64,000 nt of DNA from a virus. Positions 1 through 54,418 of the stretch are shown one piece after another. Position numbers and translations under genes: made by a program. The stretch covers positions 1 through 64,000 of the IMG/VR virus record IMGVR_UViG_3300008120_006169. One strand, 5' to 3'. A model generated the notes under the pieces. It had not been told where the DNA came from. It saw nothing but the letters and a program-made list of their open reading frames with translations, and did no database searches. Within the stretch, counting starts at the first letter, position 1, and each line of letters begins with the position of its first letter.

Positions 1-1
1 A

Positions 2-250
2 CTACACTACTCAGTTAGTCGTGAAGACTGCCTTGTTGACCACTCTCGCACAGTAAAGCCTGACTTGAGTGCGCTGTTGGCACAGGGCTACAAAAAGCAA
101 AAACTGCGAGCCCATAGTGACTTTTATTGGAACGAAGCAGTGAATGACTGGGCCTTGACATTTGCTGATCAATTCAACATTCAGTGCGAGGCCAAAGGCA
201 AGAACTTGGCCCGAGATCAATTGTACCAGCAATGGCTGGCCACTCGATGA
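2..250 (+). CDS. C-terminal part of an unidentified protein (cut by window edge)
   Basis: An open frame enters from the left edge and ends at a TGA at 248-250; about 82 residues are visible. It is rich in charged and aromatic residues and has no signal peptide or membrane segment in the visible part. I do not recognise a family. The next gene starts at 247 with an ATGA overlap, so the two are probably translated together. Confidence 0.6.
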   Translation, partial: LHYSVSREDCLVDHSRTVKPDLSALLAQGYKKQKLRAHSDFYWNEAVNDWALTFADQFNIQCEAKGKNLARDQLYQQWLATR

Positions 251-537
251 ACAACATTTTAACTGGCATCTTTGAATGGATCAAAAGTGATTACAAGACC
301 CACCCTTTTAGGTTTGTCATGGAAGTATTGGCTTGGGCTATCAGCATTGGTTGCAGTGTTGCAATGGCAGCCACTGTACCAACTCCACCCTTACTGGCTC
401 TTTACCCTGTGTGGATCACTGGTTGTGCTATCTATGCCTGGGCTGCTTGGACTCGCAGAAGTTTTGGGATGTTGGCTAACTATGTGTTGCTCACGACTAT
501 TGACACCATTGCGTTGATCCGAATGTTGACATTGTAA
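247..537 (+). CDS. Small integral membrane protein
   Basis: 96 residues starting with the ATG of an ATGA overlap with the upstream gene. After a short charged N-terminus there are about three hydrophobic segments (near residues 22-42, 46-66 and 74-92) with few loops, so it probably sits in the inner membrane. Function unknown. Its end reaches into the Pho-box-like sequence in front of pstS. Confidence 0.7.
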   Translation: MNNILTGIFEWIKSDYKTHPFRFVMEVLAWAISIGCSVAMAATVPTPPLLALYPVWITGCAIYAWAAWTRRSFGMLANYVLLTTIDTIALIRMLTL

Positions 538-549
538 CAAAATTGTAAT
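532..549 (+). promoter_or_regulatory. Pho-box-like operator upstream of pstS
   Basis: Two 7-base direct repeats, TTGTAAC and TTGTAAT, are separated by AAAA. This is the 7+4+7 layout of a PhoB binding site (family consensus CTGTCAT-N4-CTGTCAT), with substitutions. It ends 11 bases before TAAATA (561-566), the distance expected between a Pho box and a -10 element. The overlap with the end of the upstream reading frame is 6 bases. Confidence 0.5.
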
Positions 550-558
550 GTGATTCGG

Positions 559-566
559 CCTAAATA
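559..566 (+). promoter_or_regulatory. Late-type promoter CCTAAATA of pstS
   Basis: NNTAAATA element 24 bases before the pstS start codon. The same element at similar distance precedes tail-fibre and curli genes in this window and resembles the T4 late consensus TATAAATA. It could also serve as the -10 of a PhoB-activated promoter. Confidence 0.4.
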
Positions 567-590
567 GTTGTGAACTACAAAGGAGAAATC

Positions 591-1595
591 ATGTTCAAAC
601 ACTTACTGACACTACTGACCGCTTTCACGGTTACAGCACAAGCAGCCGACATCACAGGGGCAGGTGCAACTTTCCCTTATCCTATCTACGCTAAATGGGC
701 TGAAGCCTACAAGAAAGAAACTGGCGTGGGACTTAATTATCAATCAATTGGTTCATCAGGCGGCATTCGCCAGATCAACAACAAAACAGTGGCCTTTGGT
801 GCAACTGATGCACCAGTAAAAGGTGAAGATTTGGATCGACTAGGACAAGTGCAATTTCCTGCTGTTATTGGTGGCACAGTGCCGGTGATCAACTTGGAAG
901 GATTCCGCCCCGGTGAATTGCAAATCACAGGTGCAGTGATGGCAGAAGTGTTTATGGGCAACATTGTGAAGTGGAACGACCCAAAATTAGCGGCGTTGAA
1001 TCCCGGCAAAAAGTTACCTGATGCCAACATCACTGTAGTGCATCGTGCAGATGGATCAGGCACAACATTTAACTGGACAGACTATCTCACAACTGTCAGT
1101 CCTGAATGGGCCAGCCGAGTGGGCCGTGGTGCCGCAGTAAAATGGCCGGCTGCATCATCAGTGGGCGGCAAAGGCAACGAAGGTGTTGCAGCCAATGTGA
1201 ATCGTGTGAAAGGTGCCATTGGATATGTTGAGTATGCTTATGTTAAAAAGAACAACATGACATTCATGCAGTTGCAAAACAAGTCAGGCAAATTTGTCAG
1301 TCCAGATGACTTGACTTTTGCTGCCGCGGCTGCAGGCGCTGACTGGTTCTCAGTGCCAGGTATGGGCATTAGTATTGTGGACCAAAAGGGCGACACAGTG
1401 TGGCCTGTGACCACTGCTAGTTTTATTATCATGTACAAGGACCCAGCTGATAAAAAAGCATCGGCTGAAGTACTAAAGTTCTTTAACTGGTCATTCAAGA
1501 ATGGCAAGAAGATGGCTGAAGAACTGGACTATGTGAGTTTGCCTGATGTGTTGACCAAGCAAATTCGCGAGCGTGTGTGGAGTCAGATTAAGTAA
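591..1595 (+). CDS. pstS: Phosphate ABC transporter substrate-binding protein PstS
   Basis: 334 residues, the usual length of PstS. The ATG at 591 follows AAGGAG by 6 bases; an upstream in-frame GTG at 570 is less likely. A signal peptide of about 18 residues ends in AQA. The mature part opens with ITGAGATFPYP, the PstS hallmark, followed by the phosphate-loop motifs SIGSSGG, GATDAP and RADGSGTT. It binds phosphate in the periplasm and delivers it to the host PstCAB permease; no permease genes are present here, so it must use the host's. Phage pstS genes are known as phosphate-stress genes of marine myoviruses. A Pho-box-like site upstream suggests control by host PhoB, and a strong terminator follows. 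Confidence 0.95.
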   Translation: MFKHLLTLLTAFTVTAQAADITGAGATFPYPIYAKWAEAYKKETGVGLNYQSIGSSGGIRQINNKTVAFGATDAPVKGEDLDRLGQVQFPAVIGGTVPVINLEGFRPGELQITGAVMAEVFMGNIVKWNDPKLAALNPGKKLPDANITVVHRADGSGTTFNWTDYLTTVSPEWASRVGRGAAVKWPAASSVGGKGNEGVAANVNRVKGAIGYVEYAYVKKNNMTFMQLQNKSGKFVSPDDLTFAAAAAGADWFSVPGMGISIVDQKGDTVWPVTTASFIIMYKDPADKKASAEVLKFFNWSFKNGKKMAEELDYVSLPDVLTKQIRERVWSQIK

Positions 1596-1641
1596 ACAAA
1601 CCGACCTCAACGATTGAGAGGTGCTGGAACTCGTAACCAGC

Positions 1642-1670
1642 ATAATAGGACTACACAGTCCTATTATTTT
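1642..1670 (+). terminator. Intrinsic terminator after pstS
   Basis: An 11-bp perfect stem (1642-1652 with 1657-1667) encloses the loop ACAC and runs into TTT. Two weaker hairpins lie between the stop codon and this stem (around 1601-1620 and 1621-1642). Confidence 0.85.
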
Positions 1671-1685
1671 GGCTGTAAATAAGGC

Positions 1686-1916
1686 ATGTGGCCCACAATG
1701 TTTATGCTTGTGTTTGCGCCCATGCAATCATGGGCCGTAAACCTAAATGATTGCACCAAGATCAAAGATCCTGAGCAAAATGCCATGTGCATGGCTCAAG
1801 CAACAGTAAGTATTCATCACTGTGATAAAATCAAAAATCTGTCACTGAAAGAAGATTGTATGCATTGGGTGCGCAAAGAACAGCGCAGACTGGTCTGGAA
1901 CTATAACAAAAAATAA
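1686..1916 (+). CDS. Small exported cysteine-containing protein
   Basis: 76 residues. The first 17 form a signal peptide ending in SWA. The mature part is about 59 residues, charged, with four cysteines spaced as two possible disulfide pairs, so it probably folds in the periplasm. Starts at 1698 or 1704 are also possible because no clear ribosome site precedes 1686, and a TGTAAATA element at 1674-1681 would give a very short leader. Family not recognised. Confidence 0.65.
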   Translation: MWPTMFMLVFAPMQSWAVNLNDCTKIKDPEQNAMCMAQATVSIHHCDKIKNLSLKEDCMHWVRKEQRRLVWNYNKK

Positions 1917-1971
1917 ACAATTAACTTTATCATGTTTGAGCTCAATTAAATACTTCAAAAGGACACAGCCT

Positions 1972-2106
1972 ATGAGTTGGTTCAAGCACAAACCGCCCCG
2001 ATATCCTTCGACCCCCCGCCCCACTACTCCGCACAGATCAAGCCCGGCTTCAGAAAAAGCTAAACAAAAAGCCAAAGAATCTGCTCCAAACCCCCCCAAT
2101 AAATAA
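1972..2106 (+). CDS. Small proline-rich protein (44 aa)
   Basis: An ATG at 1972 preceded by AAAAGGA gives 44 residues beginning MSWFKHKPP. The middle is rich in Pro, Ser and Thr and the end is lysine-rich (SPASEKAKQKAKE). No membrane segment. The stop lies 3 bases before the cyclase start, so the two are likely co-translated. Short proteins of this style occur in T4-like aquatic phages; function unknown. Confidence 0.6.
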   Translation: MSWFKHKPPRYPSTPRPTTPHRSSPASEKAKQKAKESAPNPPNK

Positions 2107-2109
2107 TTG

Positions 2110-4158
2110 ATGTTGAAAAAAATTCTACTAAGTCCATGGACTGCTCTAATTACATTGGCACTTATTTTAAGTATAAGAATTGCTGATCCTAGCTTTGTAG
2201 AAAGTATAAGACTACGTTACTTTGACATGCTGATCACTGATCGTGCTGTTACAACAAGTGAGCAAATTCATGTGGTCAACATTGACGACCGTGCTATTGC
2301 TCAACGTGGGCAGTTTCCTTTTCCCAGAAATCAGTATGCTGACATTATTCGTCAGTTAGAAGATCGCAATGCAGGTGTGATTGTGTTTAACATATTCATG
2401 CCCGATGTGGATCGTTTTGGGCAAGACTCTGCACTGTCTCGGCAACTCAAAGAGAGTTTAGTAGTGTTGCCACACATGGCCACCAACGAAAACACTGTGT
2501 CCAAGTACGCACCTTACAGACCTGGTGTGTCTGTAATAGGCACTGGTTTGCCGGGCATAGCGTATCAAAGTATTCAACCCAACGTGAGGTCATTAAATGA
2601 AACAGCAAGCGGCATTGGCATTGTTAACACTTTGCCTGAAATCGACGGCGTTGTACGCCGAGTCCCCCAAGTCGTCACAGTTGGAGAACAAGTCTATCCC
2701 TCCATCAGTCTTGAAACGCTTAGAGTCCTTGCCGGAGATCCCAGCTTCCAGGTCCGAGTCAATGACGGAAGCGTTGAAGCAGTTAGAATTCCACAGTTTG
2801 GAAAAATTCCAACAGACAGTTACGGTAGAGTTTGGGTGGATTGGTCATCCCAACCGCAAGAATACTCCCTGGCTGATTTGCCAGAGGACTTCCAAGGTGG
2901 AATTGTCATTGTCGGACTCACAGCTCGCGGGCTCAACAACCCCGTCGCAACTGCAAGAGGAGAAGTCTATCCGCACTACTTGCAAGCCAGTGTACTAGAA
3001 ACTGTGGCAGCAGGCACCAATATTGTGCGTCCAGACTACGCTGATGGAGTTGAAATACTTGTTATCTTGGCAGCAGGCGTGTTATTATTAATTCTTACAA
3101 GGTGGGTGTATGTTGGTCTTATCTCGTTGGTTGGAATATGCGCTGTACTTGCGTATGGCAGTTACTTTAGTTTTGTCAATTACCTTTGGTTATTTGACGT
3201 TACCCTCCCAGTCGCGGGCATTGTCCTTGTCGGGCTACACGCCTACGGAGTCAAGTTTGTCTCAGAGTTCCTCCAAAAACAAGCAATCAAAAAACAATTT
3301 GCAGGCTACTGTTCCAAGGAAGTTGTAGAGCTACTGCAAAAAGATCCAGACTTGATCAAGCGTGGCGTGCGTAAAGACGTAAGTGTCATGTTCAGTGACT
3401 TACGTGGTTTTACACCAATTGGGGAACACTACGGCGATGATGTTGCTGGACTTGGCCGGTACATGAACGGCTACATGGACAGCATCAGCCGCCCTATACT
3501 AGACAACAAAGGCATGGTCATAAAGTATGTGGGTGATGCGAGTATGCACATACACGGTGCTCCAATTGAAGATCCTAACCATGCTAGAACTATTGTTCAA
3601 GTAGGATTAGAAATGTTGGATGCTGTAGATGCTTACACTAAAGAGATGGAAGCTCAGGGCTTACCACCAGCTGCAATGGGTTGGGGCTGTAACACAGGCG
3701 TCGGCTTTATTGGTGAGATGGGTTCAACAGAACGACACAGTTATGACATCTTGGGTGACATGGTGTCAACAGCCGCACGACTAGAAGCACGTTGTAAGGC
3801 TTATGGTGTGTTGGCCATTGTTGGTGCTGAGACATACAACAGAACTCGAGATGACTTCTTCTACTTGCTATTAGATAACTTACAACCCAAAGGCAAAACA
3901 GTAGCAGACTTGATCTACACCGTGCTACGCACTCGTGGTGAGGATTATACTAAAGAACGTGCTACGCACAACAAAATGCATGCCTTATACAAAGAAAAAC
4001 AGTTTGATGCGGCTGTTATCTTGTGTGAAGAATTGCACGGCAAGTTTGGTGGGCAAATGGACAAGTACTATAAAATGTGGATTGAACGTTGTGCGTTCAT
4101 GAAGCAACAGGACCTAGGCGACAACTGGAACGGTGAGTTTGTTGCCCATGAAAAGTAA
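2110..4158 (+). CDS. CHASE2-domain adenylate cyclase (class III), membrane bound
   Basis: 682 residues. An N-terminal membrane helix (about 8-24) is followed by a roughly 250-residue periplasmic CHASE2 sensor domain (for example HVVNIDDRAI and GVIVFNIFMPD), three membrane helices (about 315-380) and a class III nucleotide cyclase domain (about 420-600). Visible catalytic residues are the metal Asp in FSDLRGF (about D430), KYVGDA (K472, D476) and the adenine-selecting Asp in YDILGD. The transition-state Asn of the usual GDxVN is Ser (GDMVS), while the Arg of AARLE is kept; activity may be reduced. It would make cAMP in the cytoplasm in response to a periplasmic signal. CHASE2 cyclases often sit next to FecR-domain proteins, and one lies nearby on the other strand. 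Confidence 0.9.
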   Translation: MLKKILLSPWTALITLALILSIRIADPSFVESIRLRYFDMLITDRAVTTSEQIHVVNIDDRAIAQRGQFPFPRNQYADIIRQLEDRNAGVIVFNIFMPDVDRFGQDSALSRQLKESLVVLPHMATNENTVSKYAPYRPGVSVIGTGLPGIAYQSIQPNVRSLNETASGIGIVNTLPEIDGVVRRVPQVVTVGEQVYPSISLETLRVLAGDPSFQVRVNDGSVEAVRIPQFGKIPTDSYGRVWVDWSSQPQEYSLADLPEDFQGGIVIVGLTARGLNNPVATARGEVYPHYLQASVLETVAAGTNIVRPDYADGVEILVILAAGVLLLILTRWVYVGLISLVGICAVLAYGSYFSFVNYLWLFDVTLPVAGIVLVGLHAYGVKFVSEFLQKQAIKKQFAGYCSKEVVELLQKDPDLIKRGVRKDVSVMFSDLRGFTPIGEHYGDDVAGLGRYMNGYMDSISRPILDNKGMVIKYVGDASMHIHGAPIEDPNHARTIVQVGLEMLDAVDAYTKEMEAQGLPPAAMGWGCNTGVGFIGEMGSTERHSYDILGDMVSTAARLEARCKAYGVLAIVGAETYNRTRDDFFYLLLDNLQPKGKTVADLIYTVLRTRGEDYTKERATHNKMHALYKEKQFDAAVILCEELHGKFGGQMDKYYKMWIERCAFMKQQDLGDNWNGEFVAHEK

Positions 4159-4159
4159 T

Positions 4160-4864
4160 TTAAGTTCTTAATTTGGCAAGATACAGTGCTCTAAACACTG
4201 TGAGCCACATCCATCCTGCATCAAACTCAAACCAACGACGACTCAGTCGAGCGTTAGCAGGATCCAGATGATGGTTATTATGCAGGCATTCCCCACCAAC
4301 AATAATATCCCAAGGAACAATGTTTCTGCTGTGATCTTTAGTTTCACCATTTCTATATCCCCACCAGTGACCTAGACCGTTGATTACCCCTGCAGCCCAG
4401 AATGGAATCCAGATCATTTGTATGCCCCAGATTAAGATGCCCCACCAACCAAATATCAAGGTGTTGAGCACAAAGAGAATGCCAATGCCAAGTCTACTGT
4501 GAGGAGTGTATAAGTGAAGCTCCACCCAATCAGCAGGAGTACCAACACCGTATGCGTCAACCATGATTTTATCTTTTGATGCTTCATGATATAATCCTGC
4601 TCCTTTAAAGAAAACTCTCTTGATGCCATACACATGTGGGCTGTGTGGATCACCTGGTTGATCACTGTGCCTATGATGCTTGCGATGTATAGCCACCCAT
4701 TGCTTGGTAACCATGCCTGTTGTGAGCCATAACCAGGCTCGCATAAAGTGTTCGAGTATGGGATGAAATTCTATACTTCGATGAGCTTGTCCACGATGCA
4801 AATACAAAGTGACGCAAACTATGGTAATGTGTGTCATTACCAGGGTTGCTATTAGTTCTGTCAT
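4160..4864 (-). CDS. Membrane fatty-acid desaturase (acyl-CoA/acyl-lipid delta-9 type)
   Basis: 234 residues with the three histidine boxes of the membrane di-iron desaturase family: HRGQAH (23-28), HRKHH (60-64) and HNNHH (195-199). Hydrophobic segments lie around 3-20, 38-52 and 125-165. The enzyme would introduce a double bond into acyl chains in the inner membrane using O2 and an electron donor that is not encoded here. It is the last gene of the minus-strand block, 8 bases after the upstream gene, and converges on the cyclase with a 1-base gap. A second, more distant desaturase is encoded at 35327. Confidence 0.9.
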   Translation of the reverse strand: MTELIATLVMTHITIVCVTLYLHRGQAHRSIEFHPILEHFMRAWLWLTTGMVTKQWVAIHRKHHRHSDQPGDPHSPHVYGIKRVFFKGAGLYHEASKDKIMVDAYGVGTPADWVELHLYTPHSRLGIGILFVLNTLIFGWWGILIWGIQMIWIPFWAAGVINGLGHWWGYRNGETKDHSRNIVPWDIIVGGECLHNNHHLDPANARLSRRWFEFDAGWMWLTVFRALYLAKLRT

Positions 4865-4872
4865 TAAAGTAC

Positions 4873-5214
4873 TTAACTTCCGCCTGGCTTGGTAGTAGTT
4901 TTATCTTGCACTACACTCTTGAACGTTTTTTCAGCTTCATGATCTACTTTGTGTGCTTCCATCACACGATCACTTTCAATCATCTTGCCACGTAGGTGCA
5001 ACACTGTGTTGACCTTTTGATTCAAACGAATAAGATCATTGTCCAACATTCTAACGCGGTCAATGAGAGCAATCAACACAGTGTTGGCATCATTGATAAC
5101 AGGTTTGACTTCTTTTGTGGCCCATTCCCAAACATACTTGATGATGTAGCCCATGCCCACAGCCATCACAATAGGAAAGCCATATTTGTTTACTAGTTCA
5201 ACTACTTCGCTCAT
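4873..5214 (-). CDS. Membrane-anchored coiled-coil protein, paralogue of the one at 5396
   Basis: 113 residues: one N-terminal membrane helix (about 8-30), then a long helical, heptad-like region rich in V/L with D/N (about 45-85), and a charged tail ending in PGGS. Its layout and the GFPIVMAVGMGY stretch match GFPIAVALAGGY in the protein at 5396-5677, so they are paralogues. The start overlaps the upstream stop (ATGA). Holin-like size and topology, but function unproven. Confidence 0.75.
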   Translation of the reverse strand: MSEVVELVNKYGFPIVMAVGMGYIIKYVWEWATKEVKPVINDANTVLIALIDRVRMLDNDLIRLNQKVNTVLHLRGKMIESDRVMEAHKVDHEAEKTFKSVVQDKTTTKPGGS

Positions 5215-5396
5215 TTGACAGATCCTTCCAATACAAATTGGACCATGGGATCCACCTGGTGTAATCTTATTTTTCCATTGACTTCAATCATCTGCCAGAA
5301 CTGTCCAGGCTTCCAGCCCAGTCTTTCAGTGTCTAATTCTTTGTCTGGCACAATATATCCAGGGCCCAGGTCCCAGTTGTAATCAAGATGTAACAT
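5211..5396 (-). CDS. Small conserved phage-type protein (61 aa)
   Basis: 61 residues from the ATG of a TGATG overlap with the upstream gene. Contains KPGQFWQMIEVNGKIRL, which looks like a small beta-rich fold. It lies between the two membrane coiled-coil paralogues and overlaps both, so the three are a translationally coupled set. Function unknown. Confidence 0.7.
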   Translation of the reverse strand: MLHLDYNWDLGPGYIVPDKELDTERLGWKPGQFWQMIEVNGKIRLHQVDPMVQFVLEGSVK

Positions 5397-5677
5397 CAAT
5401 CTCTCCTTGCATCATTCTTACCATCTGCTCGTGCAATACGATCCACATCGGGTTTGAGGCCCAGCGCATTTGACACAATGGTATCAATGCGAACCACATC
5501 ATGATTCATGGTCTTTACGCGATTGTCGAGTGCTGTGATGATGCCAGCCATGCCTTTGATTGCACTTAGTACACCGGCTAACAACAGTTTGATTGTGAGA
5601 TAAACAAAGTATCCACCTGCTAATGCCACTGCTATTGGAAATCCTAGATCACCAATTAACTTGAAGATGTCCCCCAT
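5396..5677 (-). CDS. Membrane-anchored coiled-coil protein (first of a paralogous pair)
   Basis: 93 residues: a membrane segment (about 10-45, GFPIAVALAGGY then a second hydrophobic stretch) followed by a helical region with the repeated form LDNRVKTMNHDV and an RD-rich tail. Proteins of this type are common in T4-like phages of aquatic bacteria. A late-type promoter lies 24 bases upstream inside the 3' end of the FecR gene, so it can be expressed apart from the curli operon. Confidence 0.75.
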   Translation of the reverse strand: MGDIFKLIGDLGFPIAVALAGGYFVYLTIKLLLAGVLSAIKGMAGIITALDNRVKTMNHDVVRIDTIVSNALGLKPDVDRIARADGKNDARRD

Positions 5678-5701
5678 GTTGGCTCCTTATTTTTATAGTA
5701 G

Positions 5702-5709
5702 TATTTATT
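5702..5709 (-). promoter_or_regulatory. Late-type promoter AATAAATA
   Basis: On the minus strand the sequence AATAAATA stands 24 bases before the ATG at 5677. It overlaps the end of the FecR-domain gene. It matches the NNTAAATA late-type element found in front of several other genes here. Confidence 0.45.
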
Positions 5710-6781
5710 GACTTTGGACAATGGTAATTGTGGTGGTTCCACCTGTGTTGATTTTTTGATATACAGGAATGCCGTCCTGTTGGAGATCCAGTATTGCCCC
5801 TTGCTCTTTGGGAACAGTTAGTTCAAAAATATGAGTGCTGTATCTGGTTAAACCCAGCTGTTCTTGATCATCTACCCGCCATTTTAATCCTGAGCCAGCG
5901 TCATAGCCTGGCAGCATGCTCAGTGTAGTTGACATGGCTTCTTGCGTGGCCGACAAGGCTGCATTTACGGCATCCAACACATTGGGCAACAGCTCATCTT
6001 CTAGTTCATTGCGATCCAGTCGGTTGAATGCATCCAACCGATTGTCTAAATCTGCAGGTTTTAAAAAGTCTCGATCAAGAAAGTTAACGTCTAACGCTGT
6101 TCGAACATCTTTTTTGTTGTCTCTATGTTCTTCGCTAATTTCTCGGGGCCGGCTGATGATCAGCATGTTGTTGATGTTGGCCTGATCAATGGTCAACACA
6201 ACTGGTCTGGTTGGCGGTGTATCTACTGTGGAAACTAAAGTAGCTTGATAGGCCTGTGTCATTAGTATGCTACCAGATTGATTGGATACTTCAATAGCAC
6301 CTGTTACACATGTTTTGTCATCACAACTGGGCAACAGCATTATTAGACTGCGCCCAAGCTCGTCCACGGTCATTGAAAAGTCTGTGCCACGCACAGCAAT
6401 AGAAGCTGTGGGTGTGCTGACTGCAACCTGTTGTGGAGAGTTCTTGGCAATCTGTCCTGATGCATATCTAGCCGTGCCCAGAGCCACTTTCATGGCCAAC
6501 TTGCCTGTGCCTGACTTTGGGTCATACACAAAGTCATCAATTATCAGCTTTGACTGTTCAGTAATTTTGACTTTGGTAGCATCATCAAATGTAAGTTCAG
6601 CTCGGGATCGGGCTGTGACAATGGTGTCATTCATTTCCACTGCGGTATTTACAGCACTGGATATGCTTTTTCGAGCCCGTACTATTTCAGTAGGGCCAGT
6701 TTGTTCAGTGACCTTGCCTACTCCAGCCCAAGTATTAGTCAGACTGAATAATACTGATATTAATGTTATTGCCCGAAGCAT
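5705..6781 (-). CDS. FecR-domain periplasmic protein
   Basis: 358 residues from the ATG at 6781. A signal peptide of about 18 residues ends in TWA. Residues about 20-190 form a FecR domain: VGKVTEQTGPTEIVR, the DTIVTARSRAELTFDD core, and the TPTASIAVRGTDF signature. The rest (about 210-358) is a helical and beta region without a known motif. Proteins of this group sense or transmit signals across the periplasm and are often beside CHASE2 cyclases. Its start lies 47 bases inside the curlin-like gene, so it is coupled to curli gene translation. I infer it links curlin export or envelope state to signalling. Confidence 0.85.
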   Translation of the reverse strand: MLRAITLISVLFSLTNTWAGVGKVTEQTGPTEIVRARKSISSAVNTAVEMNDTIVTARSRAELTFDDATKVKITEQSKLIIDDFVYDPKSGTGKLAMKVALGTARYASGQIAKNSPQQVAVSTPTASIAVRGTDFSMTVDELGRSLIMLLPSCDDKTCVTGAIEVSNQSGSILMTQAYQATLVSTVDTPPTRPVVLTIDQANINNMLIISRPREISEEHRDNKKDVRTALDVNFLDRDFLKPADLDNRLDAFNRLDRNELEDELLPNVLDAVNAALSATQEAMSTTLSMLPGYDAGSGLKWRVDDQEQLGLTRYSTHIFELTVPKEQGAILDLQQDGIPVYQKINTGGTTTITIVQSQ

Positions 6782-7361
6782 TGACGGTTGCACTTTGAGT
6801 ATTCATACCACTCTGTGATACAGTGATTGCATTTGGGGTAGCACCTGAGCCTGACCCAGTAACATTGATTGTGGCTGAGTTGGCGCCTGATCCTGAACTG
6901 CTATGAGTCACATGGTTGTAGTCACCTAGCACTGTGATGTTACTGGTATGCGCTCCACCATTGGTACCTAGGATACTTTGCACATCATTGTTGTCACCTG
7001 TTATGGTATGCGTGATTGCAGATCCGCTACAGCTGGCGCTGATGCTGGTTCCGCATGTGATGGTCTGTTGGTTGCTGTCGCCTGTGATTGTTAACGTCAC
7101 ATTAGTGCCAGCGCCGTTGACCAACATGGCCAGTTGATTGCTACTGCCAGATTGTTCAACGTAAACTACGTTTTGGCCGCCACCAATAAAGGCCGGTGCT
7201 AGGGCAGAGCCAATGGTATTGTTGCTGCCTGCTTGTTTTAAAGTCACTGTGGCATTATCACCAACTTGCTCTATGTAAATTTCATTTGAAGCTTGAACAT
7301 GCGATAAAGCCATCATGCTCAATGCAAATATTGTCCCTTTGAGAGATCTTGTTATTTTCAT
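6735..7361 (-). CDS. Curlin-repeat (CsgA/CsgB-like) exported amyloid candidate
   Basis: 208 residues with a signal peptide ending VQA (about residue 24). The mature chain repeats the curlin pattern of beta strand, Gln, Gly and Asn at fixed spacing: IYIEQVGDNATVTLKQAGSNN, then VYVEQSGSSNQLAMLVNG and the C-terminal ITVSQSGMNTQ. The middle has degenerate Gly/Asn/Thr/Ser repeats (LTITGDSNQQ, HTITGDNNDV, ITVLGDYNH). Curlin repeats stack into an amyloid beta helix on the cell surface after passing CsgG. Two cysteines in the middle are unusual for curlins. It overlaps csgG by ATGA and the FecR gene by 47 bases. Confidence 0.85.
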   Translation of the reverse strand: MKITRSLKGTIFALSMMALSHVQASNEIYIEQVGDNATVTLKQAGSNNTIGSALAPAFIGGGQNVVYVEQSGSSNQLAMLVNGAGTNVTLTITGDSNQQTITCGTSISASCSGSAITHTITGDNNDVQSILGTNGGAHTSNITVLGDYNHVTHSSSGSGANSATINVTGSGSGATPNAITVSQSGMNTQSATVNASGNNINISIIQSD

Positions 7362-8182
7362 TTTTGTTTTGTGGGCAAGTTACTATCCTCATCCGCACTC
7401 CTTGGGCTTGTGCCCTTTTTGTATGACCAAAGTTTCCGTTTTGCTCCTTCTTGGATCATTTCGTACACCGCTTGCTCGATGGCTATTCGAACAGCGTATG
7501 TGGTGGGCTCGTTAATAGCAGCCCCGTTCTCAAGTTCAACACTGGTTGTGCCAAGGTCAACAAATTTGAGAACACCTTGATTGTGAGCTGTGCTAAACAC
7601 CGTCTTGCTCACAGCCGTATTCAGCAACACTTCTCCAGTGTTGACTGAAATCACTCGCATGGATATCACAATCTCGTCCACACGATATTGAGTACTGGCA
7701 CCAATGCCTAGCACTCTGGCTCCTCGACCACCAGACGTTATGTTGGTGTCATAACCAATGATGCCACCTTCAATCATGAGTCCAGCTACCAACAAAGGCT
7801 TGAGCGGCTTGGCATCTTTGCCTTCGTACACTTCACGTTGATTGCGAATCAGTTGACGCTCTTTGATCAAGTTGTCCAGGCCTACACGTTCAACCACTGT
7901 GAACCAGTTTGGGGTGTCTTGCAAGGCCTTGATCAAAAACACTTCAGCACCTTGTGTTACCGCTGTAGAAAATAACGCCAGCTTGTCGTTGTTTTTTTTC
8001 TGACCAGTCTTGTCCATGAATCCATATACAGCAACAGGTATTCTTGGACCATCTAACTCGGGCAACACAGCCAACAAATTTTGTCGTGGCACCAATTGAG
8101 GTGGCTGTACATCAAATTGAGTTTGATCCAAACTGGCACACCCAGACACAGCCAACAGCAATGATAAAAACAGTGCTTTCAT
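7358..8182 (-). CDS. csgG: CsgG, outer-membrane curli secretion pore lipoprotein
   Basis: 274 residues (E. coli CsgG is 277). A lipoprotein signal ends in VSGC with Cys15. Conserved CsgG stretches follow: VAVYGFMDKTGQ, FSTAVTQGAEVFLIKAL, FTVVERVGLDNLIKERQ, EGGIIGYDTN, GARVLGIGASTQYRVDEI and the final RKLWSYKK. CsgG forms a nonameric outer-membrane channel for unfolded curlin. In the pore constriction the Phe next to STAV is kept, but the Asn and the nearby Tyr of E. coli (Y51, N55) are replaced in KKNNDKLALF, so the channel bore may differ. Start chosen at the ATG overlapping the csgF stop (TGATG). Confidence 0.95.
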   Translation of the reverse strand: MKALFLSLLLAVSGCASLDQTQFDVQPPQLVPRQNLLAVLPELDGPRIPVAVYGFMDKTGQKKNNDKLALFSTAVTQGAEVFLIKALQDTPNWFTVVERVGLDNLIKERQLIRNQREVYEGKDAKPLKPLLVAGLMIEGGIIGYDTNITSGGRGARVLGIGASTQYRVDEIVISMRVISVNTGEVLLNTAVSKTVFSTAHNQGVLKFVDLGTTSVELENGAAINEPTTYAVRIAIEQAVYEMIQEGAKRKLWSYKKGTSPRSADEDSNLPTKQK

Positions 8183-8622
8183 CAAAATGCAAAACTCGCT
8201 AGTGGCACAGTGATCTCTGTGCGATTGCCATTGCTTTCTAGAATGGTCATGGTTACATCAGTAGAAGTTTTGACCCAACTGATGTTGGTGCCTTGGAAAT
8301 CCATGCTGCCTGTGGTGCCCCCACCGCTGAACAGCGAGTCTGCCAACTGTTTGCTCAACTGAGCGTAGATGCGACTTTCTACGTTGACTAGAAATTTAGC
8401 TATATTGGTTTGTTTGGCAGCAAGCTCGGCTTTGGCTATCCTGCTTGCTTCTTCTTCTCGTAGTTTCTGACGGCGTGTTGCCTCTAGTTGTTCGATTGTA
8501 AGGACGTGACTACTGTAACCGATACCACTGAACGACGGCGAATTAAATTGATGTACTAGTTCAGTGGCGGTGGCTCCAGCTGTAACCAGCATCAAGGCTA
8601 ATGTTGTTATTGTTGTTTTCAT
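8182..8622 (-). CDS. csgF: CsgF, curli secretion accessory protein
   Basis: 146 residues. After a signal peptide (about 1-19) the mature N-terminus reads ELVHQFNSPSFSG, matching the CsgF segment that plugs into the CsgG channel (FQFRNPNFGG in E. coli). A helical linker (about 45-95) and a C-terminal beta region (MDFQGTNISWVKTSTDVTMTI) complete the fold. First gene of the csgF-csgG-curlin-fecR operon; a CsgE gene was not found. A late-type promoter held in a terminator loop lies just upstream. Confidence 0.9.
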   Translation of the reverse strand: MKTTITTLALMLVTAGATATELVHQFNSPSFSGIGYSSHVLTIEQLEATRRQKLREEEASRIAKAELAAKQTNIAKFLVNVESRIYAQLSKQLADSLFSGGGTTGSMDFQGTNISWVKTSTDVTMTILESNGNRTEITVPLASFAF

Positions 8623-9849: not shown

Positions 9850-10002
9850 ATGAAGACACTAAGTTTCAAGCTCGAAATACCTCGCCAGCGCCGTCGTGCG
9901 GTGGAGTTGTACTCACGCGATACCCCTTTCAGACTCAAAGTAGAAAGGTTGCGGGTGGCGTACACTCGCAAAATCAAACACCGTCAGCGCGATGAACACT
10001 AA
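9850..10002 (+). CDS. Small basic protein (50 aa), predicted leaderless mRNA
   Basis: An ATG six bases after a strong -10 opens 50 codons. The product is rich in Arg and Lys (PRQRRRAVELYSR, RKIKHRQRDEH), suggesting nucleic-acid or ribosome binding. Its end overlaps the start of the lipoprotein gene at 9992 by 11 bases. No homologue recognised. Confidence 0.6.
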   Translation: MKTLSFKLEIPRQRRRAVELYSRDTPFRLKVERLRVAYTRKIKHRQRDEH

Positions 10003-10243
10003 ACATCTGGCACCTTTGCTATTGATCACATTGATAGGGTGTGCATCAGCACCTAGACCCATGCCAATAGATGTGGCCATCATGCCAGATGACTGTGCCA
10101 ATAGGTCTGCCATTGCCAGGTGGATCGAAAGTCAAGATTTAATTCCTCGTCAATCATTTCAAAGTGAGCAAGATTATGCACGTCAGCGATCGCAAATTCG
10201 CCACCGTCTTTGGACTCTGCGTTACAATTGTCAGCCTGTGTAG
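9992..10243 (+). CDS. Small lipoprotein
   Basis: 83 residues. A lipoprotein signal with lipobox LIGC (Cys17) is followed by a Pro-rich linker and a charged helical domain ending RYNCQPV. Anchored in the envelope. It overlaps the next lipoprotein gene and belongs to a run of exported proteins (9992-11964). Family not recognised. Confidence 0.7.
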   Translation: MNTKHLAPLLLITLIGCASAPRPMPIDVAIMPDDCANRSAIARWIESQDLIPRQSFQSEQDYARQRSQIRHRLWTLRYNCQPV

Positions 10244-10520
10244 TGGGTGCGCCGTTACCAATGTCAGTCGCATGCCCATGTCCGAGCGTGATCTAAATTT
10301 TTTCCAGCCCAACTGTCGTATCAAAGAACAACAGATTGCGATGTTGCAAAGCATGAGGCAATCAGAAGATGAGATGCTGTTTGCTGGACTAGGAAACATT
10401 GGCAATTTTTGGACACAAATAACTGACCCAGACGGCTATCAACGCAGACAAGAAATTGCATCTGGTGCCATAAACAAACAGATAAATTGGAATCTGCAAC
10501 ATTTAAAACACTGCTCATGA
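10176..10520 (+). CDS. Lipoprotein of unknown function
   Basis: 114 residues from ATG 10176 (GTG 10164 is an alternative). The N-terminus has a hydrophobic run and lipobox CSGC (Cys near 24). The mature part is helical (KEQQIAMLQSMRQSEDE) with two further cysteines. It overlaps both neighbours, so it is co-expressed with them. Confidence 0.65.
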   Translation: MHVSDRKFATVFGLCVTIVSLCSGCAVTNVSRMPMSERDLNFFQPNCRIKEQQIAMLQSMRQSEDEMLFAGLGNIGNFWTQITDPDGYQRRQEIASGAINKQINWNLQHLKHCS

Positions 10521-11077
10521 AAAAACTAGTCATTGCTCTCATGTTACCTGCGGCAGTAGCAGCCGGTGAATGCGTTTTACAAAGCAAAACAGCCACTAAT
10601 GGTCGTGCGCAGATACTTGAGAGATCTGCGTTGACACAGACTGTAACTCCAGAAATTAATGGAAAGAAACGATGCATTGTGAGTTTCCGTGCAAGGATTG
10701 GAAACCAGTGGCTTACTGCTCACGGTGACCAGTCTTTTGATCTTTCTCAATCCGAACAGTCAGCATGCAATATTGCACTAACTCGAGCAGAAGCAGAAGT
10801 GCAAAGTCGAAGCGGACAAACGTCTGTAGCTACAGAATCCGTTGTGGTGTGTTCGGATAGACCCGAACACCAAACAATTCGAAAGACCACAGTGGGCACA
10901 GTGGGCCTGGTAAGCCAGTTTAGACCGCATCCAGACCGCAATAGAGAGTTTTGGCACAACGGCGCTCGGTGCCGTTGGTTTTTGGATACTGAATTCCAAG
11001 CACAAGACATTGCTGTGGTACAAGGAATCATTTGCCAAATGCAAGATGCAAAGTGGATAGTGGTTGACAAATTTTAA
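10517..11077 (+). CDS. Exported cysteine-containing protein
   Basis: 186 residues from the ATG of an ATGA overlap. A signal peptide (about 1-17, ends VAA) precedes a soluble domain with several cysteines (GECVLQ, KKRCIVSFRARIG, SACNIALTRAEAEVQSRSG, GARCRWFL). The central segment with regularly placed Ala (NIALTRAEAEV) recalls LPP20-type domains. Probably periplasmic. Its last codons carry the -35 box of the next gene's promoter. Confidence 0.7.
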   Translation: MKKLVIALMLPAAVAAGECVLQSKTATNGRAQILERSALTQTVTPEINGKKRCIVSFRARIGNQWLTAHGDQSFDLSQSEQSACNIALTRAEAEVQSRSGQTSVATESVVVCSDRPEHQTIRKTTVGTVGLVSQFRPHPDRNREFWHNGARCRWFLDTEFQAQDIAVVQGIICQMQDAKWIVVDKF

Positions 11078-11092
11078 TCAATCTGCTACAAT
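11064..11092 (+). promoter_or_regulatory. Sigma70-type promoter TTGACA-17-TACAAT
   Basis: TTGACA (11064-11069) within the coding end of the upstream gene, 17 bases, TGC-TACAAT (11087-11092). Drives the LPP20-like lipoprotein gene. Confidence 0.75.
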
Positions 11093-11124
11093 GCTTTATC
11101 CGTTAACTAACCTGAAAGGTGTGT

Positions 11125-11964
11125 ATGAAACTCGTTAAACTTTCTGTTGTGGCAATCAGTGCCGGTCTTGTGGCTTGTGCCAGTGCTCAAAAAGCCGAAG
11201 TGCCCGTGCCACAGGTGGTAGCACAACCAGCACCACAAGTGTATCAAGCCCCGGTACATCCGTATGCCATGCCAGCCCAGCCTCAGCGTGTGATACCCCG
11301 TGCGCCAGAATGGTTTGTACGCCTGCCTGAAGATACCGCAGAGATGACCTTTGCGGCTGGTACAGCAGTCAGCACAGACGAACAAATGGCCTACGACAAA
11401 GCTCGTATGGCAGCTGAACGCAAGTTGATTGAGCAGATGTATGCTCGTATTACCACACAGACCAATAACTTTAGATCTGATCGTGGCCAAGCTCTGGTTG
11501 AAAACTTCCAGCAGGTCACTCGCAAGAATGCCAATGGTGAGTTGAGTGGAGCTCAACGGGTAGACAGTCAAGCCACCCATGACGGGCAGTACTACAAGGT
11601 CTATGTGTTGTTGCGTCTGCCCCTTGGAGCCGCAAACACAATTCAAACTCGACGAGAACAAACTCAGTTGACACGCGAACTTGAAATCCGCAGTCGGGCC
11701 GCTGAACAAAACATGGATCGTAACGAAGCAGTTGAGCGCAAAACTCAGCAAGATACTGATGCCAATCTTGAACGTAGCTTGGTTCCGCAAAGTCGAATTG
11801 AACCTGTAAAAGTGGAAACGGAACCAAAACCGGCTCCTAGTGTAGTAAGCACCACACAAGGTGAACTAAAATTACTGGACGTGGACAATGAGGAATACAA
11901 GCGCAAACGAGCAGAAGCATTGGCCAAGCCTAATGCAGTGGTTGGACAAATTACCCTGCAATAA
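11125..11964 (+). CDS. LPP20-family outer-membrane lipoprotein
   Basis: 279 residues from ATG 11125. A lipoprotein signal ends LVAC (Cys18). A Pro/Gln/Val-rich linker (about 25-65) leads to an LPP20-like domain (about 68-175): PEWFVRLPED, FAAGTAVSTDEQMAYDKARMAAERKL. A charged coiled coil (about 180-235) follows, and the C-terminus ends VVGQITLQ. Relatives of this fold include FlgP and other surface lipoproteins. It has its own promoter and a terminator, and is the last of four exported proteins in a row; its role in a phage is unclear, possibly envelope modification with the curli system. Confidence 0.8.
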   Translation: MKLVKLSVVAISAGLVACASAQKAEVPVPQVVAQPAPQVYQAPVHPYAMPAQPQRVIPRAPEWFVRLPEDTAEMTFAAGTAVSTDEQMAYDKARMAAERKLIEQMYARITTQTNNFRSDRGQALVENFQQVTRKNANGELSGAQRVDSQATHDGQYYKVYVLLRLPLGAANTIQTRREQTQLTRELEIRSRAAEQNMDRNEAVERKTQQDTDANLERSLVPQSRIEPVKVETEPKPAPSVVSTTQGELKLLDVDNEEYKRKRAEALAKPNAVVGQITLQ

Positions 11965-12014: not shown

Positions 12015-12590
12015 ATGACCACAGATAACTCCCTACAAATTGAGCAGACTCACACCCAAGCCTTGGCCGACGCTGGAATGTATGTTTTTATGGGCGAGGT
12101 TGATGATGATAACATCAAACCCATAATTGAATGGATCCTGCACGAGAACTTTGTGGCCAAGAAAAAACGCAAAGAACTCTTGCTAATGATTTGCTCAGAA
12201 GGTGGAGACATGAGTTCAGCATTTGCCTTGATTGATGTCATGCGCAGTTCGGTCATTCCAATCAAAGCTGTGGGGCTGGGGCAAATTGCCAGTGCCGGAT
12301 TGTTGATCTTTTTGGCAGGAACACCAGGACGCAGAACACTCACTCCTAATACGTCAATCATGAGTCACCAGTATGCCTGGGGCAGTGATGGCAAACATCA
12401 TGAACTATTGGCCACAATTAAAGAGTTTGAGCTCACACAAAAACGCATGGTACAGCATTATATAGATTGTACAGGTCTAAGCGAAGACCAAATCAAGCAA
12501 CATCTGTTGCCACCGCATGACGTTTATTTGGGTGCGGATGATGCCCTGCGGCTGGGTATCTGTGATCACATCAGCCAAGTGACTCGTTAA
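12015..12590 (+). CDS. ClpP-family serine protease (divergent)
   Basis: 191 residues in the ClpP/crotonase fold. The catalytic Ser is in GQIASAG (S93) and the His in MSHQYAWG (H118); the third residue lies in the C-terminal third. SEGGDMSSAFALIDVM matches the ClpP oxyanion strand (NSPGGS), with Glu for Pro. It is shorter at the N-terminus than ClpP, so ClpX/ClpA docking may differ. It may process phage proteins or pair with the canonical ClpP at 14219. A perfect late-type promoter upstream suggests late expression. It overlaps the end of the converging gene by 4 bases. Confidence 0.85.
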   Translation: MTTDNSLQIEQTHTQALADAGMYVFMGEVDDDNIKPIIEWILHENFVAKKKRKELLLMICSEGGDMSSAFALIDVMRSSVIPIKAVGLGQIASAGLLIFLAGTPGRRTLTPNTSIMSHQYAWGSDGKHHELLATIKEFELTQKRMVQHYIDCTGLSEDQIKQHLLPPHDVYLGADDALRLGICDHISQVTR

Positions 12591-14167: not shown

Positions 14168-14195
14168 TGTTTTCTTCCGAGAATAATGCTATACT
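14167..14195 (+). promoter_or_regulatory. Sigma70-type promoter of clpP
   Basis: TTGTTT (14167-14172), 17 bases, TGC-TATACT (14190-14195), 23 bases before the clpP ATG. It overlaps the first codon of the divergent gene. Confidence 0.65.
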
Positions 14196-14218
14196 TATGC
14201 AATCAACCAGGAGACCCC

Positions 14219-14806
14219 ATGTCAAATCTAGTGCCAATTGTTATCGAAAACACTTCCCGAGGCGAACGCAGTTACGACCTTTACAGCCGCTTGCTCAAAG
14301 ATCGTGTGATCATGCTGGACGGAGAAGTCACCCAACACACAGCCAGCTTGATCTGTGCGCAGTTATTGTTTTTGGAAAGTGACAACCCCGACAAAGCCAT
14401 CAGCTTGTACATCAACTCACCCGGCGGATCAGTCACAGCAGGTATGGCCATTTACGATACCATGAACTTTATCAAGCCCAAAATTCACACTATTGTGATG
14501 GGGCAGGCTGCCAGCATGGGCTCGTTGTTGGCCGCTGCTGGCGACAAGGGCAATCGCTACATCCTGCCCAATGCACGCCACATGATCCATCAACCCCTGG
14601 GCGGCGCATCGGGTCAGGCCACAGACGTGGAAATTCAAGCTCGAGAACTATTGCGTTGGAAAACTGTGTTGACTGATATCTATGTCAAACACACTGGCAA
14701 ACCCCACAAACAACTCAAAGCTGATATGGAACGTGACAATTTCATGACTGCTGGCGAAGCAGTTGAATATGGCCTTGCTGATAAAATATTAATCAAACGA
14801 GATTAA
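14219..14806 (+). CDS. clpP: ATP-dependent Clp protease proteolytic subunit ClpP
   Basis: 195 residues, canonical ClpP length. N-terminal [21 protein letters not shown] is the standard axial region, with [18 protein letters not shown], Ser99 in GQAASMG and His124 in MIHQPLGG. It assembles into the 14-subunit chamber and would work with a host ClpX or ClpA. Start chosen at ATG 14219 behind AGGAGACCCC. The stop converges with a small minus-strand gene by 4 bases. Host-like sequence suggests acquisition from a bacterium, or exchange with host subunits to redirect proteolysis. Confidence 0.95.
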
Positions 14807-30504: not shown

Positions 30505-30689
30505 CCAAGGATAAGGAACAGCAATTACATAAACCACATGAGGAATCTTGGCCCATGTTTATGTCCCGAGAGCAACGCGAGCAATTGATTCAAAACAAAT
30601 TTGCTCGGGCTCACCATTATAGTAAACTTCGAGGAGAACATCATGTACGAAGCAACCATACAGGAAACATCTTACAGAACAGCAGGTGA
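30501..30689 (+). CDS. Small hydrophilic protein (62 aa)
   Basis: ATGA overlap with the histone-like gene; 62 residues rich in His, Gln and Arg (SREQREQLIQNKFARAHHYSK). Its end overlaps the start of the next gene by 47 bases, so the C-terminus may be shorter in function. Unknown. Confidence 0.5.
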   Translation: MTKDKEQQLHKPHEESWPMFMSREQREQLIQNKFARAHHYSKLRGEHHVRSNHTGNILQNSR

Positions 30690-32810: not shown

Positions 32811-32897
32811 TAGTTAACTGCGCCGTTTGTTTAAAAACGGCACCATTTTGGCCCGGTAATTCCGGTGATAGCAACCATTCCAGTAAGTAAAACTACC

Positions 32898-54393: not shown

Positions 54394-54418
54394 CCTTGAT
54401 GGTAATGCATGTTATAAT
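54390..54418 (+). promoter_or_regulatory. Early-type promoter TTGACC-17-TATAAT, leaderless, inside an inverted repeat
   Basis: TTGACC (54390-54395), 17 bases, TGT-TATAAT (54413-54418); ATG 54424 five bases on. AATGCAT (54404-54410) and ATGCATT (54417-54423) form an inverted repeat across the -10, an operator candidate. Confidence 0.75.

Follow-up and report, generated by a model that had tools for sequence, protein, structure and literature searches.

What use could a phage make of the genes for a bacterial amyloid-secretion system? The question is raised by a 64,000-nucleotide stretch of viral DNA (positions 1 to 64,000 of IMG/VR record IMGVR_UViG_3300008120_006169; hereafter the window), in which a preliminary description had recognized csgF, csgG, a curlin gene and fecR as overlapping genes on one strand, with a CHASE2-domain cyclase on the other. 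CsgG and CsgF form an outer-membrane amyloid pore. We tentatively favour, at slightly less than even likelihood, that the locus encodes a sensed type VIII (curli) secretion module coating the infected cell, in which the FecR protein would be a fibre-linked periplasmic part reporting to the CHASE2 cyclase.

The csg locus and its genomic setting

The gene arrangement was confirmed (Table 1), with overlaps of 4 bases for CsgF/CsgG, 4 for CsgG/curlin and 59 for curlin/FecR (47 if FecR starts at ATG 6781). The four genes are thus real, but they are only part of the operon: missed by the preliminary description, the minus-strand run goes on past FecR through small proteins A and B and the short ORF between them to a desaturase gene. 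The latter converges with the cyclase gene on the plus strand, their stop codons lying one base apart; a desaturase cluster was found in 17 of 83 CsgG loci. Profile searches bore out the proposed identities of CsgF, CsgG and FecR (all over cut-off) and of CHASE2.

Table 1. Genes of the csg operon and the convergent cyclase gene in the window.
Product	Position	Strand	Evidence and remarks
CsgF	8182-8622	minus	Signal peptide, then CsgG-binding segment F-x-S-P-x-F-x-G; PF10614 E 1.1e-14
CsgG, outer-membrane pore lipoprotein	7358-8185	minus	PF03783 E 4.5e-52
Curlin-repeat subunit, CsgA/B-like	6735-7361	minus	PF07012; solenoid-type model
Secreted FecR-domain protein, curlin-like C-terminal tail	5705-6793	minus	PF04773 E 1.8e-10
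Protein A (93 aa), a small, probable membrane protein	5396-5677	minus	phrog_18771 E 5.5e-29 (function unknown)
Small ORF between proteins A and B	5211-5399	minus	Only in part of the lineage; recognized in 47/80 protein A loci
Protein B (113 aa), likewise small and probably a membrane protein; paralog of A	4873-5214	minus	phrog_18771 E 6.2e-29
Fatty-acid desaturase, operon end, facultative neighbour	4160-4864	minus	PF00487 E 7.3e-14
Class III cyclase with a CHASE2 domain, facing the end of the csg operon	2107-4158	plus	PF05226 E 1.6e-37; PF00211 E 8.1e-15

Three longer records of 215, 286 and 364 kb match positions 1-8000 and 52897-64000 of the window at 100% identity and, since they carry both window ends, the phage appears to be jumbo-sized. 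In two of them (215 and 364 kb) the csg region is internal, and in the 286 kb record it sits at the end; loci L002-L004 agree with the window over 18,185 bases at 99.945%. As the three longer records may come from related samples, we also relied on locus L006, a different phage that is approximately 81-93% identical over the longer matching stretches and keeps the same flanking genes. Together, these records make a host-phage chimera, the concern raised in the preliminary description, unlikely. The window start is the end of its record, and a tRNA search of the window found none.

Pore proteins and curlin substrate

Secretion by CsgG, CsgF and curlin is well supported by their sequence matches, in line with the curli-type export first proposed for the locus. 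CsgG matched the PDB sequence of CsgG (3x2r, E 4.2e-48) and its lipobox Cys16 was invariant (12/12), while phage CsgG proteins diverge down to approximately 44% identity. CsgF scored 55.1 bits against a PF10614 cut-off of 25.8; a phmmer search of PDB sequences with it returned no relative and a single unrelated match (E 0.19). Among 80 aligned phage CsgF proteins (of 106 distinct), the consensus keeps F, S, P, F and G of the segment F-x-S-P-x-F-x-G, read as CsgG-binding after PMC12311626, at 90% or more. Aligned by eye to the positions given in that paper, the window CsgF keeps Phe26, Pro29, Phe31 and Gly33 and has Ser at the positions of Asn28 and Gly32, both described as loop residues without variation in bacteria. 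The gate protein CsgE was found in none of five phage records, which may be fragments, in a search with a positive E. coli control; it is missing as well from the pelagiphage modules according to PMC9599517.

The assignment of curlin was borne out, although the repeat match is weak for the whole protein: Curlin_rpt (PF07012) exceeded its cut-off at the curlin gene in a six-frame search, but reached only 16.8 bits (E 0.0067; cut-off 20.7) with the complete protein. In the predicted structure, beta-strands repeat regularly (pLDDT 87.8; alignment of 36 rows out of 81 distinct candidates, the Melnitz and HTVC008M rows excluded), and VIA aligned this model with the CsgA fibril 8enq (Z 13.8, 111 aligned, rmsd 8.5). 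This solenoid match is not specific, since SufB/SufD, the top VIA match, scored higher (Z 16.4). In Foldseek the SufB-SufC-SufD complex was also best (E 0.022), and CsgA was absent among the 50 matches listed. In the 138 kb and 364 kb records, a single gene gave curlin repeats. With a CsgG/CsgF pore and a curlin substrate, the infected cell could export amyloid.

A secreted FecR-domain protein with a curlin-like tail

The FecR ORF begins with GTG; an in-frame ATG at 6781 gives, by inspection, a cleaner signal peptide and is the likely start. The FecR domain (PF04773, over cut-off) directly follows this hydrophobic signal-type N-terminus, again by inspection, and was the sole Pfam model common to all 22 FecR proteins examined, for none of which Pfam listed an anti-sigma N-terminal domain or called a curlin repeat. 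An assignment as FecI/FecR-type anti-sigma regulator is not supported, given the signal-type N-terminus and the lack of a listed anti-sigma domain before a membrane span among these 22 members. Built on an alignment of 55 FecR rows from 101 distinct candidates, again excluding the Melnitz and HTVC008M rows, the structural model matched the PupR signalling domain 6ovk (Z 15.2), and its N-terminus showed a possible resemblance to the anchoring-domain fold 5ix9, from an adhesin retention module of LapA/MpAFP type (Foldseek E 6.7e-3, 61 columns, rmsd 0.9; VIA Z 6.7, 73 aligned, rmsd 2.4). The only hit of the FecR profile among PDB sequences was 2ru1 (E 0.32), and the available text of PMC8277102 had no passage on retention modules.

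The C-terminal tail resembles the end of curlin. A model of the first curlin repeat scored at least 5 bits in 64 of 104 FecR C-termini, while shuffled sequences reached this score in 41 of 2080 cases and internal segments in 5 of 529; a model of the last repeat separated less well (12/104 tails versus 45/2080 shuffles at the same threshold). In 91 of the 104 proteins Gln is one of the four C-terminal residues, and a strict regular expression for the tail matched only 15. Compared as profiles, tail and curlin matched co-terminally with a score of 28.7 (P 1.9e-4, probability 47.8%), while 11 control segments scored 13.1 or less. One of 400 column shuffles (including an earlier 200 with the same seed) reached 28.7, namely a 7-column artefact scoring 131.2, and the next best scored 22.8. 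Under other settings the probability was only 8% (P 0.0011), and the modelled tail also matched Ig-like folds weakly (Z 2.8-2.9). The one bacterial chromosomal relative found, from Hyphomonas (locus L175), has no Gln-ending tail. New for this protein would be a signal peptide, a FecR domain and, at the C-terminus, a likeness to the curlin end.

The CHASE2 cyclase and its pairing with FecR

Class III cyclases use two metal-binding Asp residues, a substrate Lys, and a transition-state Arg and Asn. In 80 aligned relatives of the window cyclase (of 104 distinct), Asp431, Lys473, Asp477 and Arg558 were kept without exception, and 52 had Asp547 and Ser554. We take Ser554 to occupy the position of the usual transition-state Asn and, with Ser in its place, cyclase activity may be low.

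That FecR and CHASE2 proteins are common partners, as the preliminary description had supposed, is supported by neighbour counts: a FecR domain lay within 3 kb of 36 of 113 CHASE2 matches, whereas approximately 0.6 would be expected by chance. This count covered 113 CHASE2 and 129 FecR places in 50 genomes from the class of a Hyphomonas; it omits G471 and G498, two of 52 genomes with CHASE2 matches, and a few weak or fragmentary CHASE2 rows. FecR and CHASE2 are thus a recurrent pair, and neighbouring genes for a FecR-domain protein and a CHASE2 sensor have been described in bacteria (PMC5192318).

Two small companion proteins

Proteins A and B are paralogs according to profile comparison (probability 98.4, E 5.8e-15), and B was present in 77 of 80 protein A loci. 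Both, probably membrane proteins, are overlooked parts of the module. Protein B weakly matched the holin family phrog_4898 over residues 1-23 only (E 1.2e-4), and protein A had no PHROG holin match at E up to 0.01; neither holin models nor HisKA/HATPase were listed by Pfam for 42 small proteins at E up to 5. The C-terminal side carried more Lys/Arg in 36 of 46 B proteins versus 4 of 45 A proteins; the charge bias of protein A does not suggest a C-in topology. Membership in the YvrJ family was considered and discarded, as the matches stay below the Pfam cut-off (17.1 versus 29.5 bits for the window protein A; matches in 4/22 A and 4/20 B members, with best E values of 0.0041 and 0.29). Judged by gene position only, these are likely the proteins published under the name histidine kinase (PMC9599517), a name that gains no support from the 42 members, for which no kinase domain was listed.

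Seven families recur together

A neighbourhood search in viral records found the families together in dozens of contigs, a recurrence that argues against chance grouping. Counts were made after removal of the window's own copy (L001) and, for the 39- and 38-locus counts, of loci with short flanks, and family alignments contained up to 80 distinct sequences (of 106 CsgF, 90 CsgG, 105 FecR, 104 cyclase, 109 protein A and 117 protein B). With CsgG as query, CsgF, curlin, FecR and the cyclase were present in all 39 loci with enough flank (33 clusters at 95% CsgG identity) and the small pair, after whole-record search, in 37. With the cyclase as query, the six partners occurred in 38/38 loci flanked by 9 kb or more on each side (33 clusters at 95%), and the small-protein query retrieved CsgG in 30/30 records of at least 65 kb. 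The small pair was found in six of 50,697 phage records, each of which also bears CsgG. In Melnitz and HTVC008M it precedes csgF, in the window it follows FecR, and elsewhere it is on the opposite strand; as gene order and strand vary, the linkage is more than simple synteny.

Among the best 80 CsgG loci from a collection of bacterial genomes, two had the cyclase and two the small pair, the latter on contigs that were phage or very short, and protein B was detected in none of 398 sampled genomes from the phylum of a curli-bearing Hyphomonas. Two of the seven families therefore look phage-specific. A CsgF-CsgG-curlin-FecR-cyclase cluster was found among bacterial-type neighbours on a 705 kb Hyphomonas contig (L175).

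Interpretation and alternatives

In the sensed secretion module that we favour, CsgG and CsgF would form the outer-membrane pore and curlin its solenoid substrate. The N-terminal FecR domain would remain periplasmic, followed by a flexible linker, with the curlin-like tail joining or capping curlin; from there the domain could contact the CHASE2 domain of the inner-membrane cyclase, such that the export of fibres, or a pore that is blocked or loaded, would be read out as cyclic AMP. Proteins A and B would be regular phage-specific parts of this machine, most likely partners of the cyclase in the inner membrane, with a holin-like role as the alternative. Relay and benefit are what we infer from these parts; the likeliest benefit would be remodelling of the infected-cell surface, which could serve to exclude superinfection or to hold cells together and would give feedback on the state of the host. 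The specific relay in which the tail sits in or caps the fibre at CsgG, the FecR domain is kept in the periplasm like the retention plug of an adhesin and reports the state of fibre or pore, and the small pair serves as regular subunits, for a cAMP readout of the host surface, is doubtful as a whole. If it is real, the virus would construct an amyloid organelle on its host and also monitor it.

The main rival, unlikely but to be taken seriously, is that CsgG, with or without CsgF, was repurposed as a pinholin- or secretin-like pore for lysis timing, with the small proteins as holin-like helpers. This was already suggested for Melnitz (PMC9004378) and would suit the two probable membrane proteins that accompany the module, the weak holin match of B, and the occurrence of the pair, among the 80 bacterial-collection CsgG loci, only on two contigs that are phage or very short. 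A bare pore, however, needs no curlin, FecR or cyclase, and their retention with CsgG in 39 of 39 loci speaks against it, as do the lack of Pfam holin matches and the location of a cell-wall hydrolase/endolysin-type gene 24 kb away (32865-33473). Moreover, PMC9004378 describes Melnitz as lacking csgA and csgB, yet two genes in the record of this phage are annotated as curlin-repeat genes, each exceeding the Pfam cut-off. We consider improbable that an ungated CsgG admits larger solutes together with a PstS-like protein, an uptake role suggested in PMC7029224. The undetected CsgE gate and a PstS-like gene 0.5 kb from the cyclase (PBP_like_2, E 1.6e-34) would fit, but that gene occurs in just 6 of 83 CsgG loci (L002-L004, L006, L065 and the window), and curlin and the FecR-cyclase pair are left unexplained.

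Very improbable is a purely regulatory role, in which FecR would act as an anti-sigma regulator responding to iron and the operon would be controlled by a histidine kinase, as the names in PMC9599517 imply: the FecR fold does match the periplasmic domain of such regulators (6ovk), but the signal-type N-terminus stands straight before it, and neither anti-sigma nor kinase domains were listed for the respective 22 and 42 proteins. Least probable of all is that the module is mere cargo, a curli cassette of bacterial type that serves no selected function. The Hyphomonas cluster is a plausible donor type, but the four catalytic residues kept in 80/80 cyclases and the retention of seven families across phages as divergent as described for CsgG speak against this reading. 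The published accounts that we found, as far as their available text goes, agree on no function for viral curli. With seven families acting as one unit, two of them phage-specific-looking and FecR apparently fibre-linked, function becomes testable with named parts, and the module is now placed in jumbo-sized phages.

Comparison with known systems

With the csg system of E. coli the phage module has CsgG, CsgF and the curlin solenoid in common; FecR, the CHASE2 cyclase and the small pair are additional, and CsgE was not found (0/5 records). A route from the outer membrane to CHASE2 cyclases and cAMP is known from Sinorhizobium meliloti, where the outer-membrane barrel NsrA signals to such cyclases (PMC13001267) and a FecR-domain gene lies near cyaD1; in the available text of PMC13001267 and PMC5498481, curli parts are not mentioned, and no need for the FecR-domain protein in perceiving the signal was found (PMC5498481), a point against the proposed relay. 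In the Burkholderia BiofilmReg operon (PMC5192318), a periplasmic LysM-FecR protein is paired with a CHASE2 histidine kinase; here the output is a kinase rather than a cyclase, and the word curli is absent from the main text.

Among phages, the csgG and csgF genes in marine phages mentioned in the preliminary description are indeed on record (PMC7029224, PMC9004378), whereas the combination of curlin, FecR and cyclase, thought to be possibly new, had been published for pelagiphages in 2022 (PMC9599517). According to that paper, viral curli proteins occur at all 65 ocean stations examined, and the pelagiphage module likewise runs CsgF-CsgG-CsgA/B and then FecR, often supplemented by an adenylate cyclase and a second curlin; ahead of it come one or two genes under the name histidine kinase. 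The window differs in that its cyclase lies on the opposite strand, the small genes follow FecR, one curlin-repeat gene was found (138 and 364 kb records) and the genome looks jumbo-sized; no kinase domain was seen in the small proteins, nor does the FecR protein have an anti-sigma-like build. Clumping, which the preliminary description had offered as a role beside nutrient entry and superinfection exclusion, was not seen in Melnitz infections according to the available text of PMC9004378. In the curli operons of Methylophilales phage Melnitz and Pelagibacter phage HTVC008M the whole gene set lies on one strand, unlike in the window, and includes a second curlin-repeat gene, which in HTVC008M is annotated as hypothetical yet exceeds the Curlin_rpt cut-off; the first HTVC008M curlin (L083:8800-9483), named curlin-associated in the record, lacked the Pfam curlin repeat at E up to 0.1. 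Both operons nevertheless consist of the same families as in the window, the two small proteins included, with CsgG proteins 47-48% identical to that of the window.

Gene order and domain content of the csg region

The genes for CsgF, CsgG, curlin and the FecR-domain protein overlap consecutively on the minus strand, and the run goes on past FecR with three small genes and then a desaturase, whose stop codon meets that of the CHASE2 cyclase on the opposite strand. The CsgF, CsgG, FecR and CHASE2 assignments of the preliminary description all received clear Pfam support; its curlin call passed the Curlin_rpt cut-off in a six-frame search, but was weak in a whole-protein scan. CsgF, CsgG, FecR, the cyclase and the small proteins A and B (probable membrane proteins) match PHROGs families of unknown function, A and B falling into the same family.

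Genes of the csg region in the window
Feature	Position	Strand	Profile support
CsgF	8182-8622	-	Pfam, clear
CsgG	7358-8185	-	Pfam, clear
Curlin	6735-7361	-	Curlin_rpt, weak on whole protein, past cut-off in six-frame search
FecR-domain protein	5705-6793	-	Pfam, clear
Small protein A	5396-5677	-	
Small gene between A and B	5211-5399	-	
Small protein B	4873-5214	-	
Fatty-acid desaturase	4160-4864	-	
CHASE2 cyclase	2107-4158	+	Pfam, clear for CHASE2 and cyclase domain

The window encodes two fatty-acid desaturases and one beta-ketoacyl synthase (4160-4864, 35327-36076 and 36073-37233); PMC7029224 describes fabF and a desaturase from freshwater fonsimyophages, phages that have no curli. Small lipoprotein-like and secreted reading frames cluster beside the operon (9992-11964). 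Two of them show weak similarity that stays under the Pfam cut-off, one to LPP20 and the other to the 17 kDa surface antigen.

Composition of the module

Unsupervised clustering of 83 CsgG loci (80 viral loci, Melnitz, HTVC008M and the window) placed CsgG in 83, CsgF in 81, curlin in 79, FecR in 74 and the cyclase in 63. One small-protein family, with 120 members, occurred in 62. Clusters of antisense or overlapping reading frames were also frequent (72, 53, 45 and 40 loci); after the module families, the most frequent remaining gene cluster reached 39. Restricting the set to loci with 7 kb or more before CsgG and 8 kb or more after it left 39 (33 clusters at 95% CsgG identity); CsgF, curlin, FecR and the cyclase were each present in 39/39. 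A lay within reach in 30 of these and B in 34. When whole records were searched for the nine loci lacking A, it turned up in seven, with a second, weaker match that we take for B; the two without it are fragments, 25 and 37 kb long. A thus belongs to 37/39 loci, and so does B if the weaker match is taken as B.

Other members were also used as queries. Among the best 80 of at least 575 places matching A, B was within reach in 77, the cyclase in 69, FecR in 53 and CsgG in 49; whole-record searches recovered CsgG for 12 of the 31 remaining loci (total 61/80). By record length, CsgG was present in 30/30 records of at least 65 kb, 16/19 of 30-65 kb, 11/15 of 10-30 kb and 4/16 below 10 kb. For the best 80 of 271 cyclase places, with any flank, B was found in 71, A in 69, curlin in 67, FecR in 62, CsgG in 61 and CsgF in 60; when each side had 9 kb or more, every family was found in 38/38 (33 clusters at 95%).

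Profile comparison identifies A and B as paralogs, with a strikingly conserved segment at the C-terminal end of A and in the middle of B. Residues 1-23 of B weakly match a PHROG holin family, and a Pfam scan listed no kinase domain for members of either. Judged by position, we infer that the genes called histidine kinase in PMC9599517 are A and B.

Distribution in phage and bacterial records

The window, the opening 64,000 bases of a record 138,077 bases long, carries clear phage genes (clamp loader, PhoH, endolysin-type hydrolase, virion protein). Its first 8 kb recurs at 100% identity in three other records (214,935, 286,229 and 364,404 bases), as does the stretch 52,897-64,000; two of these records hold the csg region away from their ends, while the 286 kb record has it at its end. 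Because the longest matches both parts at 100%, and provided that it is sound, the window's phage measures 364 kb or more. CsgG-bearing records of 200 kb or more number fourteen in the CsgG and small-protein sets, three of them this same phage.

Elsewhere in the window are a Bax1-I (YccA-like) membrane protein (30601-31338, E 5.9e-54; no PHROG match at E 1e-5) and two ClpP-like genes, 12015-12590, named by inspection, and 14186-14806, matching head-maturation proteases, with a 526-residue protein lacking a PHROG match between them.

Across 50,697 phage records, A and B were each found in the same six (four Melnitz strains, HTVC008M twice). CsgG was found in those six and in one more, a record of 1.5 kb that bears the label Salmonella phage. 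Of the best 80 CsgG loci listed from the bacterial genome collection, two alone contained A and B: the 3.9 kb contig L198, and L234, in which the genes for DNA polymerase, clamp loader, processivity factor and endolysin have phage-family matches. FecR and cyclase together were found in L234 and L175; the latter, a Hyphomonas contig of 705 kb on which the neighbouring genes are of bacterial type, lacks A and B. B was not found in any of 398 genomes searched in the phylum of L175's genome, while the genomes of L163, L164, L198 and L234 gave a match and three others none. L163, L164, L198 and L234 are phage-type curli contigs apparently binned into MAGs labelled Pirellulales, Pelagibacter, Flavobacteriales and Sphingobacteriales, phage genes being confirmed for L234 alone. 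Such contigs would be a source of false bacterial curli records.

The phage curli literature found comprises PMC9599517, PMC9004378 and PMC7029224; the last two contain the csgG/csgF reports in marine phages to which the preliminary description referred. Among the literature matches listed and the passages covered, we found no description of the small pair as such, of curli modules in jumbo phages or of a curlin-like FecR tail.

The proposed pore and fibre, and the FecR protein

Phage CsgG and CsgF may have lost their pairing, as PMC9004378 argues, and the window CsgF has Ser at both positions of Asn28 and Gly32, unlike the bacterial protein, in which these are invariant across 35 sequences (PMC12311626). 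We nevertheless favour a CsgG-CsgF pore on sequence grounds, because across 80 aligned phage CsgF the consensus retains F-x-S-P-x-F-x-G; aligned by eye, this corresponds to the segment that PMC12311626 and PMC7304575 describe as binding CsgG. The FecR protein has a signal-type N-terminus followed by the FecR domain; a linker that is modelled poorly then leads to a tail of six strands closed, as in curlins, by a strand and Gln. Gln stands among the last four residues in 91/104 FecR proteins, 76/104 first and 41/47 second curlins, compared with CsgG 34/112, CsgF 12/107, cyclase 3/123, A 0/110, B 12/118, desaturase 4/25, ClpP 5/20 and, in a tiny set, PstS 4/4. A model built on the first curlin repeat supports a curlin-like tail, as do permuted controls and profile comparison. 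Against it, Pfam calls no curlin repeat in the 22 FecR proteins scanned, structure comparison gives weak Ig-like matches, and a last-repeat model performs less well than the first-repeat one; the Hyphomonas relative (L175) lacks such a tail. Anti-sigma regulators have a periplasmic domain that the FecR-domain model matches (6ovk, Z 15.2; 4m0h, Z 13.7); it matches more weakly 5ix9 (Z 6.7), the cell-surface anchoring domain of the Marinomonas adhesin. Adhesin retention modules are located in the periplasm (PMC13090378). On our reading, the FecR protein would be a fibre-linked part with a periplasmic head.

In nine loci, including L017, L036, L056 and L081, a gene is inserted between csgF and csgG; its product has some 670 residues, a start of signal type and a C-terminus that looks barrel-like, and two members scanned gave no Pfam match. 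HTVC008M gp018 (10567-11889, annotated hypothetical) is a second curlin-repeat protein with both Curlin_rpt (33.1 bits) and PA14 (27.7 bits) over cut-off, which points to a phage curlin with a sugar-binding head.

Comparison with known FecR-CHASE2 systems

Cyclase catalytic residues are mostly kept in an alignment of 80. Asp547 occurs with Ser554 (52 each), and Thr (26) or Ser (2) with Asn (28); the two variants may mark two lineages. Of 113 CHASE2 matches in 50 genomes from the same class as the Hyphomonas genome, 36 had a FecR domain within 3 kb, versus about 0.6 expected. In S. meliloti, CHASE2 cyclases are fed by an outer-membrane barrel (PMC13001267), but according to PMC5498481 perception was not found to require the FecR-domain protein whose gene lies near cyaD1, which counts against a simple ligand role. 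In Burkholderia, a LysM-FecR protein is paired with a CHASE2 kinase (PMC5192318).
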